Assembly: GCF_003391055.1 (NCBI RefSeq)
Contig: NZ_QUAJ01000011.1
Location: 1-64,000, forward strand
Reading direction: 5' to 3'
DNA: 64,000 nt
Source of the DNA: Psychrilyobacter piezotolerans
GTDB lineage: Bacteria > Fusobacteriota > Fusobacteriia > Fusobacteriales > Fusobacteriaceae
Of the stretch, positions 21,566 through 50,434 are shown one piece after another. Each line of letters begins with the position of its first letter. Position 1 is the first letter of the stretch. The translations under genes were made by a program, and so were the position numbers. The notes under the pieces were generated by a model, which made no database searches, was not told where the DNA came from, and worked only from the letters and a program-made list of their open reading frames with translations.

Positions 21566-21591
21566 AAAAAAAAGGGCACACACGTGCGCCC
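21566..21591 (-). terminator. Riboswitch expression-platform terminator
   Basis: Minus strand stem GGGCGCA-C/G-TGTGCCC (21574-21591, one G-U pair) followed by eight Ts (21566-21573). Its first two or three Gs are also the 3' strand of P1 of the aptamer, so the two structures compete. Confidence 0.8.
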
Positions 21592-21654
21592 ATAGAAAGA
21601 AGATTTTCGCTCTCCTAGTAGATACTCTTTTAGCATATTTAAAAGATTATATGG
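21590..21654 (-). promoter_or_regulatory. Purine-class riboswitch aptamer (guanine-like, C74)
   Basis: Minus strand. P1 CCATA/TATGG; J1/2 TAATC; P2 CTTTTA/TAAAAG with 7-base loop AATATGC; J2/3 AGTATCTAC; P3 AGGAGA/TCTTCT with 7-base loop GCGAAAA; J3/1 ending in C before P1. This matches the purine riboswitch layout: two 7-base loops, TATAATC and TCTAC core, and C at the ligand-pairing position 74 as in guanine types. The loop-loop pairs G37-C61 and G38-C60 of the consensus appear as G-C and C-G, a compensatory change. Deviations: A for U48 and a U-U at the base of P3. Confidence 0.8.
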
Positions 21655-21681
21655 AATTACTTATTTTTATATCCGTTAAAA

Positions 21682-45606: not shown

Positions 45607-47544
45607 CTATTTTTTTATAAAAACTTTATCTCTCATGGGATTTTTTATGTCCAATACAAAGTCTTTAAACTCTCTATACTCCTCTTTTTTTACTATTCCA
45701 ACAGGGATATAGATCTCTCTGGTTATATCTATAATATTTTTATCCTGTTTTGAGATAAATTTATATTTTGCAGTTCTGTCTCCTATCTTAAATTCCTTTA
45801 TAATATTCAGCCCATTGATAAATTTAGAAGTCTTTAGGATATTTTTTTTCTGACCGAGATCTATCCTAAAGGTTTCCTTGGTGGATATTTCATCGTATAT
45901 TTGGTAATCATGATCTCTCTTATCCAAAGATAAACTTAAGTTGATTTCCACAGAGGGTATTGTAAAGTATAAATATTTATCCTGGTCTATCACAAAATTA
46001 TCCGCCTTTAAACCATATGACATTTTCATAGGTTCTTTATAGTCCAGAAAATCACTGAATTTGGTTTCTCCTACTATCGTAGTCGATGAACTGCCAAAAT
46101 CTTGATCTATAAGATTTTTCCTCTGAGCAGGAAGCATTTCTCCATAATACCTTATAAAATAATCTCTTATCCCCTTAAATTCAAGGTTTACATCTATCTT
46201 TGCATCGCCATCTTCTAACTTATAGAGATAGTTTTTATTCTCCTTATAATCTATTTTTGGTTCATAAACCTGGGGCAGATAGTTATTTTTTTTAGAGATA
46301 TAATTTGTTTTTTCATCAAATGCATCCAGATAGTTCCCTCTACTATTTAATCGAACTATTCTCCCCTCAACATATGTTCCAACAGTATATATAGAATTAT
46401 TCATAGGATATTTTATCTGATAAGGAGAACTTTTATCGTATGAGTCTAATATGATCACAGGATAGACATCATTGATATTTTGTGCCCTAACTAAGCCTAC
46501 AAACAATGCATTCAAATCGATTTTAGAACCGTATTTTTGATAGATAATCCGGTCTAAATTTAACGGTTTAAAATCCGACTGGGATAAATATATTTTTTGG
46601 GCAGTAAAATTATTTATCACATATGAATATATTTTAGCTACTTTGTCTATTTTTTCTTCGGTATCTCCTACTATTTTATTGGAAAGCTCCCTGACCTCAG
46701 GGGTGATCTCGATATTGTCCATAGATTGTATTTTTTCTTTACCGAGATCTGACCAGTCTTTATAAAAAGAATATACAACTTTATTTATATCCAACAAGAG
46801 ATTTACAGGCATCTCCTCCTCCCTCTTTAAAACTTTTGCATTCTTCGAACTAAAGGTAAGGATATTTCTGTCACCTAAAACTTTTTTATCCTCAACTATA
46901 TTATCCCCTGCAACCTCATACTTTAACTCCATAGATTTTGGATAATCTATTGTTCTAGTTTTATTCACAGAGGGGATTTTAGTGTCAAAAGGTTCATTCC
47001 CACCCAGCGGATAAGTATACTTAGTTTTAATAGTATAGTCTGTTACAATATATGTCCCTGGTTCTACTTGAGGGAAATTAATTATCCTATTTTTATTGTG
47101 AACATATGTAGGCGAGTATATCGCCAGTTCATCATCTTGTTCGATGCTTTGGTTTTTAGGTATTGAAATCTTTTTATAATCTTTTGTCACTGTATACATT
47201 TCTCCCAAGATCAATTTTTCATTGGTCGGGTCATAATTTATAACTATATCTGAATTTTTTTTCTTTCCTTCATAGTTGATTATCTGAGTAATATAAAAAT
47301 AATGGACTTCGCTGCTTCCATCCTCGTGGACAGTTGTTTTTTTATTGTTTACCAAATCAACTGCTCCTAATTCATTATACTCCTCAGGAAGTTTATTGTT
47401 ATTTTTAATAATCTCTATAACTTCACTAAATTTATATCCTATCTTATCTGAATTTTCACCGTTTTCCAACTTAGATTTCGTACACCCTATAAAAATAAGG
47501 GCAGTCAAAGTTAAACATAGAAATAATTTTATTTTATTTTTCAT
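45607..47544 (-). CDS. DUF3857 lipoprotein with degenerate transglutaminase domain
   Basis: A 645-aa lipoprotein: signal LTLTALIFIGC with Cys21 as the lipid site, then a DUF3857-type N-terminal domain and a transglutaminase-like domain. It is a diverged paralogue of the gene just upstream (47534-49486) and overlaps its end. Where that protein has GGVCRDKA, this one reads YGSKIDLN, with Lys341 in place of the catalytic Cys, and the NHM histidine region is not conserved. So it is probably not an active transglutaminase and may be a binding or scaffold partner of its neighbour on the cell surface. Confidence 0.82.
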   Translation of the reverse strand: MKNKIKLFLCLTLTALIFIGCTKSKLENGENSDKIGYKFSEVIEIIKNNNKLPEEYNELGAVDLVNNKKTTVHEDGSSEVHYFYITQIINYEGKKKNSDIVINYDPTNEKLILGEMYTVTKDYKKISIPKNQSIEQDDELAIYSPTYVHNKNRIINFPQVEPGTYIVTDYTIKTKYTYPLGGNEPFDTKIPSVNKTRTIDYPKSMELKYEVAGDNIVEDKKVLGDRNILTFSSKNAKVLKREEEMPVNLLLDINKVVYSFYKDWSDLGKEKIQSMDNIEITPEVRELSNKIVGDTEEKIDKVAKIYSYVINNFTAQKIYLSQSDFKPLNLDRIIYQKYGSKIDLNALFVGLVRAQNINDVYPVIILDSYDKSSPYQIKYPMNNSIYTVGTYVEGRIVRLNSRGNYLDAFDEKTNYISKKNNYLPQVYEPKIDYKENKNYLYKLEDGDAKIDVNLEFKGIRDYFIRYYGEMLPAQRKNLIDQDFGSSSTTIVGETKFSDFLDYKEPMKMSYGLKADNFVIDQDKYLYFTIPSVEINLSLSLDKRDHDYQIYDEISTKETFRIDLGQKKNILKTSKFINGLNIIKEFKIGDRTAKYKFISKQDKNIIDITREIYIPVGIVKKEEYREFKDFVLDIKNPMRDKVFIKK

Positions 47545-49486
47545 CTATTTTCACCTCTTTTATCAAGAATAAATTGTTATTATTTGAAAGTTCCCCTATC
47601 TCTTTTTTTATGTCCTGATATTTTTCTTTGGGAAAATGAATCTTTGAATTTTCCAGATAATAAGTGGTATCCAATGTATTGTTTTTTACTTTGGAAGTAA
47701 ACACAGTTTTAAACCCGGCATAGTTAATGGTCTTAGGTTTTGGTATGGAGATATTTGAAATACTTTCCGGAAATTCCAAACGATAGTTCACGGTGAAACT
47801 TGTGGGTGAATTTAATTTAAAATCATATTTCCTGTCGGCTAACGAAAATGGGTATGAAATTGATCCCTCATACATAAAATGGATACTGGGATCGGCACCA
47901 CTAAAAGGGATGAATATATAGTCATTGATCTTTTTTCCGTATTCAGGTATCTCAATATCAGCTTTTATAGTATATTTAGAATCCATATTTTTAGGATCTG
48001 AAGTTATAATATTTGTCGTTATTATGCCGGGATTAACCCTGTTGATCAGCCTGGTTATCAATTTATCCAAATCATATTTATTCATCCTCATAGATGCCGA
48101 TCTAAAATCACCATCAGCTATCCCTGAAAATATAAATTCAATAGTTCCTACAGCATTATAGTCACTGTCCAGCTTTAGATCTATAGCTGCACTGGAGTTA
48201 TTCTCTATAGCCGGCGACACGGGAGTACTCCTCAGTCTATCTCCATCTCTACTAGATATCAGATAGGAATTATCCTCCTCATATTTAGGTAAAAAATCCT
48301 TAGTGGTTTCGTTTGTCGGATCCAGGATATGCAATGGTTCACCGCTTTCATCATAGGCCATCGTTATCATATGATTAAACAAGTCGATCGGAACCTCAGG
48401 GCTAATACGTGATCCCGAGCTTATAAGAACCGTATCTGACTTAATTCCAGCTTCATTCAGCATAGCACTCAAAAGGGTCGCTTTATCTCTGCATACTCCC
48501 CCTCTGGTTTTAAATGTATAAGATATATCATGGGGCTCCAGACCAGGTCTGTTCTTTTCGCCGTCTACACCCAGATACCTTATGTTTCTGGCCACCCAGT
48601 AGAAGATATTCTCTATTTTTTCATCCCTTGTTTTAGCATCTTTGGTCAGTTCACGAACTTTCTCTCTGATATCATCATCCATGGTAAGGTGAGGTGTCAC
48701 CAGTTCATAGGACCATTTGGATATATACTCCCAATTTGGTATGGTTGTATACTCAATATGATTTAAAGAAAATGAAGCATCATCCATATTGGGCTCCGGA
48801 GTCACCAGCGGATTATCCCTTATGTTCCATTCATATATCTGTTTATCCCCGGCTACAGTTCTTTTTTGATCATACTTAAACCCCTTCTTATTCAACTCAT
48901 GGACATACAATTTTATGTCCTTAGGAAATGTAAGTTTTTCATAGTTATTTATAAATTTGTTAGAATTTTCCAGGGTAATTCCCCCTGAAAAATGCCCTTC
49001 TATCCTTGCTTTTTTTATAGTTTCAACAGCTTTGGTATATATTATATCTCCTATCTCCAGATTTGGTAAATTCCCGGATAAAGTTTTTGCTTGAGTTGTA
49101 TATATGTTCTTTTTTTGAGAAGCTCCATTTATTTTTTCTTCCAATATTTTTTTCGGATCTAATTTGATTACCTTTCCATCTGCTTTAATCAGCTCTATTG
49201 CAGCTATATCTAAACTGCTGTAATTGGCATCATAATCAAAGTAAAGAGAGTTATCTTTTTTAGAAGTGGTATTCAAGACTTTTTTATAAATTTCGGTCGT
49301 TATAGTCCCTCCTCCCAACTCATCCCTTTCTGTCAGTGAGTTAACTATATAAACCTCATTATATTCAGCATAGTCCTCAGCTGCTATAGGTGATAAGATT
49401 TTAATAGCTTCATTTTTCGGGATATAAGCAGAAAAACTTATCGATGAAAACCATATTGACAATAAAATTACAAGTTTCTTGATCAT
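47534..49486 (-). CDS. DUF3857/transglutaminase-like protein, secreted
   Basis: A 650-aa exported protein with a Sec signal peptide (KKLVILLSIWFSSISFSA). An N-terminal DUF3857 domain is followed by a transglutaminase-like cysteine protease/amidase core with an apparently intact triad: Cys332 in RGGVCRDKA, His372 in LFNHMITMAYD and Asp389 in HILDPTNE. A beta-rich C-terminal domain follows. It has no lipobox, unlike its downstream partner. Role probably in envelope protein or peptide modification; exact substrate unknown. Promoter at 49554-49582. Confidence 0.88.
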   Translation of the reverse strand: MIKKLVILLSIWFSSISFSAYIPKNEAIKILSPIAAEDYAEYNEVYIVNSLTERDELGGGTITTEIYKKVLNTTSKKDNSLYFDYDANYSSLDIAAIELIKADGKVIKLDPKKILEEKINGASQKKNIYTTQAKTLSGNLPNLEIGDIIYTKAVETIKKARIEGHFSGGITLENSNKFINNYEKLTFPKDIKLYVHELNKKGFKYDQKRTVAGDKQIYEWNIRDNPLVTPEPNMDDASFSLNHIEYTTIPNWEYISKWSYELVTPHLTMDDDIREKVRELTKDAKTRDEKIENIFYWVARNIRYLGVDGEKNRPGLEPHDISYTFKTRGGVCRDKATLLSAMLNEAGIKSDTVLISSGSRISPEVPIDLFNHMITMAYDESGEPLHILDPTNETTKDFLPKYEEDNSYLISSRDGDRLRSTPVSPAIENNSSAAIDLKLDSDYNAVGTIEFIFSGIADGDFRSASMRMNKYDLDKLITRLINRVNPGIITTNIITSDPKNMDSKYTIKADIEIPEYGKKINDYIFIPFSGADPSIHFMYEGSISYPFSLADRKYDFKLNSPTSFTVNYRLEFPESISNISIPKPKTINYAGFKTVFTSKVKNNTLDTTYYLENSKIHFPKEKYQDIKKEIGELSNNNNLFLIKEVKIDEK

Positions 49487-49681: not shown

Positions 49682-50434
49682 TTAAATATCCTTCTTCCCG
49701 CGAACTAAAATTCCCTTGGTTTTAGATGAACTGTTATAGCTTTTTTCCTCCATCACTTCTACCTTGGTAAAGCCGGCGTCTTCCAACATCTTCAGAAAAA
49801 CCTTTTCCGATACAGCTCCTCCCTCTCATTGAAACCAGCTGTCGACCCTGTCTCTGTGATCTTTAATTTTTCCACCTGTAAATAATTGATCCACTACCAT
49901 TAGTTTTCCCTTTGGTTTTAACACTCTATACAGCTCTTTAAACAGAAATTCTTTATTTGGAACCAGGTTAAAAACACTGTTAGAGATTATTGTATCAAAG
50001 GTGGCATCAGGAAATATCAAATTATCATCCTTGGATAATACCAGACTGGTATTTTTCAGATTTAATTTATCTATATTTTTCTTTGCTCTCCCTAACATCT
50101 CAGGAATAAGATCCAGCCCGACCACCCTGCCTTGATCTCCTACTAATTTAGAGGCAAAAATCAGATCGATTCCCGCTCCGCATCCAAAATCCAGGATGAT
50201 TTCTCCATCTTTTATCTCTCCTAATAAAAATGGATTTCCTGTTCCACAGTAGGCATCAGCTACCATTTCAGGGAGCTGTTCCATTATATTTCTGTCATAT
50301 TTTAAAAACTCCAGTGCTTTACGCCCTGTAGTATACCTGAATTGTCCCGCAGGATTAATAGCAACCTTGGAGTACTTTTTTTCTATATCCTTCTGTATCC
50401 TGACCCTATCATCTATTGAAAAAAAATCTTTCAT
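49682..50434 (-). CDS. ArsM-like SAM methyltransferase, probable selenoprotein (in-frame TGA = Sec203)
   Basis: The frame has a TGA at 49826-49828 but continues in register for 47 more codons to a TAA at 49682-49684, giving a 250-aa product. Before the TGA: YCGTGNPFLLGEI and SAM motif I ILDFGCGAGID (residues 80-90), GLDLIPEMLGRAKKN, then YRVLKPKGKLMVVDQ. After it: EGGAVSEKVFLKMLEDAGF, the usual C-terminal part of ArsM/UbiE-like enzymes. The TGA (WFQ-U-EGGA) falls where arsenite methyltransferases have a conserved As(III)-binding Cys (W-x-x-C-x-x-GA). A hairpin with a GGU loop starts 15 bases after the TGA. The best reading is Sec; an ordinary stop or sequencing error are alternatives. Substrate could be arsenite or another metalloid. 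Single gene with its own promoter. Confidence 0.82.
49792..49810 (-). promoter_or_regulatory. SECIS-like hairpin
   Basis: Minus strand TCGGAAAA-GGT-TTTTCTGA: an 8-bp stem (one G-U) with apical GGU. The loop begins 24 bases after the TGA, within the roughly 16-37 base range reported for bacterial SECIS elements, and it has the G at the loop start that SelB recognises. Confidence 0.65.

Follow-up and report, generated by a model that had tools for sequence, protein, structure and literature searches.

In the window analysed here (the whole stretch of 64,000 nucleotides of contig NZ_QUAJ01000011.1 of Psychrilyobacter piezotolerans), a gene resembling those of arsenite methyltransferases (ArsM) is crossed by an in-frame TGA codon. 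The locus raises two questions, namely whether this TGA ends the protein or is read as selenocysteine (Sec), and which substrate the resulting enzyme would methylate.

The reading frame and its in-frame TGA

The gene is located on the minus strand (49682–50434). Its frame opens with an ATG at 50434, runs through 202 sense codons to the TGA (codon 203, 49826–49828) and continues for a further 47 codons (49685–49825; EGGAVSEKVFLKMLEDAGF...RGKKDI) to a TAA at 49684–49682, just as the first-pass annotation had described it. With the TGA counted as one residue, the predicted product has 250 residues, Sec at position 203 and the full extent of a class I SAM methyltransferase, the whole C-terminal segment included. 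The class I SAM-binding domain was confirmed by the Pfam model Methyltransf_31 (83.6 bits, match from residue 74), and SAM-binding motif I (LDFGCGA, residues 81–87) lies at 50174–50194 of the minus strand. In the window, five ORFs of 150 aa or more end at a TGA. The in-frame continuation comprises 47 codons here and 0–15 codons in the other four, all of which are devoid of a SECIS-like hairpin after the TGA; by this comparison, the arrangement exceeds what chance would give.

The same TGA codon was found in four Fusobacteriaceae genomes, belonging to the organism of the window, a congener, Ilyobacter polytropus and a member of another genus. The congener protein is 80% identical to the window protein, and its gene has the same aminopeptidase neighbour and the same downstream gene. 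The gene from the third genus has a second TGA, and its product, a double selenoprotein, is a full-length ArsM/DUF2284 fusion (723.8 bits; cut-off 575). An assembly or sequencing error converting TGC or TGT to TGA is practically excluded, because the TGA is shared by the congener, whose genome is independent, and recurs in the two remaining genomes, including the complete I. polytropus plasmid record.

Among 38 further homologues, Cys occupies this position in 36 and TGA in two, one from G084, a genome of the same order but a different family, and one from Paraclostridium bifermentans. Together with the four family genomes they form an alignment of 42 sequences, in which column 203 contains Cys 36 times, TGA six times and nothing else. 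The exchange of Cys and Sec, which the first-pass annotation had proposed to look for, is therefore present among the homologues. In the public record of the P. bifermentans plasmid CP124691, one arsM CDS is annotated straight through the TGA. The matches at loci L078–L109, which come from 789 sampled genomes of the class and phylum of the window genome, are all Cys forms. Scanning genome contigs with a single protein gave a distant match only, and the viral and phage collections yielded distant methyltransferases only, or nothing. In genome G058, a long match containing nine TAA codons was taken as a spurious extension.

If the TGA were a true stop, the enzyme would consist of 202 residues and the downstream frame would be a remnant. 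Standard annotation agrees with such a reading, as the RefSeq CDS of the I. polytropus homologue (WP_013388987.1) ends at the TGA, but we consider it very improbable. The 47-codon tail is conserved in four genomes and, since 19 of its 31 differences from the congener fall at third codon positions, it is by this measure under purifying selection. Moreover, the TGA is conserved as well, none of the other homologues truly ends at this position but each continues past it with Cys or TGA, and the machinery for Sec insertion is encoded in the genome. An in-frame TGA and a conserved coding tail, which mark a bacterial selenoprotein gene, occur together at this locus. The gene model has been corrected accordingly; standard annotation would cut the window protein at residue 202, as was anticipated and as is the case for the I. 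polytropus homologue.

The I. polytropus homologue (L067, 2635–3705) is located on plasmid pILYOP01. An IS3 element lies directly upstream of it, the first residues of the protein are replaced, and the protein ends within the linker that leads into DUF2284 in the fused relative. This homologue is probably a decaying copy, deprived of its N-terminus and of any DUF2284 half.

The downstream hairpin and the selenocysteine machinery

The second element claimed for the locus was a hairpin 15 nt after the TGA. It was found at 49810–49792 of the minus strand, where UCGGAAAA-GGU-UUUUCUGA may form a putative bacterial SECIS with an 8-bp stem, one pair of which is G-U, and a GGU loop. The folding energy of the hairpin is −4.6 kcal/mol, and the single-sequence fold of the region is not better than those of shuffled sequences (z about −0.4). 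A rival pairing of 9 bp has a small advantage in stability, an equally stable downstream hairpin follows 1.6% of the 2,217 TGA trinucleotides in the whole window, and an Rfam search at gathering thresholds reported nothing at this place. Since the single-sequence fold is weak by itself, the evidence for the hairpin rests on its conservation. It is kept, with an identical 15-nt spacing, in all four genomes that carry this type of gene, and all 32 pair cells are intact across them, with one two-sided change (U-A/C-G) and one A-U/G-U change; with four sequences only, the pair counts do not beat shuffles. Codons 204–217 were identical at 7 of 10 positions, compared with 20 of 97 in the remainder of the gene (p=0.002), when only positions with an amino acid common to all four genomes were counted. 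Such an unusual invariance of the codons points to selection acting on the RNA. A hairpin placed just downstream of the TGA, with a G in its apical loop, is thus recognizable as a SECIS candidate through conservation, without support from folding energy.

The genome was also searched for selA, selB, selC and selD; the absence of selB or selC would have spoken against the selenoprotein. All of them are present and above their cut-offs. A tRNA-Sec with the anticodon UCA is encoded, and selD, selA and selB are adjacent on one contig (C5), with SelA, SelB and SelD all over cut-off. The selD gene (G000:C5:24018-24929, L066), placed directly before selA and selB, carries an in-frame TGA of its own, which is common to the congeners and the same-family genome G053. 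In the genomes of the genus of I. polytropus that were searched (G041, G042), selD has no TGA and lies away from selA-selB.

The Sec machinery, the conserved TGA, the Cys/TGA exchange and the conserved hairpin lend strong support to the selenoprotein proposed at first reading, and UGA-203 is very probably read as Sec. In the mechanism that the sequences strongly suggest, SelB and Sec-tRNA would read the UGA at codon 203 as Sec, and the hairpin just downstream would, as a SECIS, guide this SelB-dependent insertion.

The active site and the possible substrates

The alignment with the CmArsM structures (PDB 4fr0, 4fs8, 4fsd; 4kw7), homologous over residues 30–228, places Sec203 on Cys224, so that the selenolate would occupy the place of this As(III) ligand. 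The claim that the TGA replaces a conserved, arsenite-binding cysteine is borne out in this respect. Residues 72, 174 and 224 are described as integral to the binding of arsenite, and at least three of Cys44, Cys72, Cys174 and Cys224 are expected in an ArsM (PMC5552862). In the window protein only the last of these is kept, as Sec203, while G37, T65 and S153 occupy the places of C44, C72 and C174 (numbering counted by hand from the alignment), which leaves it short of three. The sole ArsM cysteine position that is retained thus carries Sec, and on this alignment the canonical three-thiolate site is absent. Instead, the YCGTGNP motif of the clade has an invariant Cys63 (50246–50248, minus strand), which precedes the position of CmArsM Cys72 (Thr65 here) by two residues. 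A homologue on a Chelatococcus plasmid (L074, 80–895) is of the Cys form and also lacks the equivalents of Cys72 and Cys174; the reduced cysteine set is therefore not confined to selenoproteins.

The protein could still methylate arsenite in the manner of canonical ArsM, with Sec in place of Cys224. The overall homology to the ArsM structures and the position of the Sec favour this explanation, as do the two acr3 genes present elsewhere in the genome and the selenoprotein ArsM of P. bifermentans, which keeps the Cys72 and Cys174 equivalents and is encoded in an arsR-metallophosphoesterase-acr3-arsM cluster. However, the equivalents of Cys44, Cys72 and Cys174 are lost in the clade, the arsenite methyltransferase model PRK11873 (cut-off 263 bits) scores this protein at 173.8 bits and the P. 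bifermentans protein at 323 bits, and no ars gene adjoins the gene within the window. The ArsM identity assumed in the first-pass annotation is therefore upheld for the Sec203 position, but not for the three other cysteines, the model cut-off or an ars operon, and we regard a canonical ArsM function as a tentative possibility, with a probability clearly short of even.

The gene is flanked by what we take to be, from their sequences, a peptidase-like gene on one side and transglutaminase-like genes on the other. The latter are two large neighbouring genes (45607–49486) downstream of the selenoprotein gene, with the appearance of DUF3857/transglutaminase-type secreted proteins; in the congener, too, the homologue is followed by the first of the two. 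Elsewhere in the window, a purine riboswitch aptamer was detected at 21573–21674 of the minus strand (56.6 bits).

Alternatively, with about an even chance, the enzyme may be a SAM methyltransferase for another substrate, such as a small thiol or selenol or another metalloid, in which Sec203 would act as ligand, nucleophile or redox switch. The loss of three ArsM cysteines together with the invariant Cys63, peculiar to the clade, agrees with this possibility, and the fusion relatives bear additional redox or metal-binding domains that contain Sec (DUF2284, AhpD, UXPK). Against it stands the retention of exactly the Cys224 position. In a more specific form, to which we give somewhat less than even credence, the clade defined by the motifs YCGTGNP, SNSV[FI]NL and WFQUEGGA would be a selenium-dependent methyltransferase for a non-arsenite substrate, with a Cys63/Sec203 pair replacing the three-cysteine As(III) site and the window protein as its minimal stand-alone form.

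The explanation that we consider highly likely as a whole is that of a stand-alone SAM methyltransferase of the Sec clade, produced by hairpin-guided, SelB-dependent read-through. Sec203, perhaps with Cys63, would most likely hold a soft substrate, be it As(III), a related metalloid or a thiol compound, which would then be methylated from SAM. Arsenite itself is a possible substrate.

Comparison with known selenoprotein methyltransferases

Selenoprotein methyltransferases of this kind have been described before, and the idea has precedents. A marine metagenome survey of 2008 already included an arsenite methyltransferase as a bacterial selenoprotein (PMC2398784), and in 2016 the family, with 41 proteins, was among the top 20 selenoprotein families (PMC5029168). 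A 2026 review enters arsenite methyltransferase, with the motif UxxG, as an experimentally verified selenoprotein family, gives WP_011987699.1 as an example and also lists three fusion families (PMC13188914).

The three fusion families, as defined in NCBIfam, share the domain of the window protein as their N-terminal part. The whole window protein corresponds to positions 1–248 of NF041536 (ArsM_DUF2284_UU; 355 bits, cut-off 575), including the first Sec in the UEGGA motif, and the same N-terminal methyltransferase domain was matched by NF041537 (ArsM_AhpD_UU, 314 bits) and NF047649 (MTase_UXPK_star, 241 bits), both below their cut-offs. None of these cut-offs was reached because the second domain is missing: unlike NF041536, a full member of which is encoded in G053, the window protein has no C-terminal DUF2284 domain with a second Sec, and unlike the other two families it has no AhpD or UXPK domain. 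A DUF2284 remnant was sought downstream of the gene in the window and in the congener and was not found, nor was a DUF2284 gene found anywhere in the genome. By domain content, the window protein belongs, as a stand-alone form with no second domain fused to it, to an already known clade of selenoprotein methyltransferases.

The selenoprotein arsenite methyltransferases (PRK11873/NF008823, UxxG), represented by the P. bifermentans protein, are likewise single-domain proteins with Sec at the Cys224 equivalent; the window protein differs from them in its score (174 against 263 bits) and in having no Cys72 and Cys174 equivalents. With CmArsM it shares homology and the Cys224 position, now Sec203, and it departs from it at the other three cysteines. 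These missing cysteines are a warning against naming the whole clade arsenite methyltransferase. The gene represents a small, single-domain version of the methyltransferase that the named families fuse to further Sec domains, and is a convenient form in which to search for its substrate.
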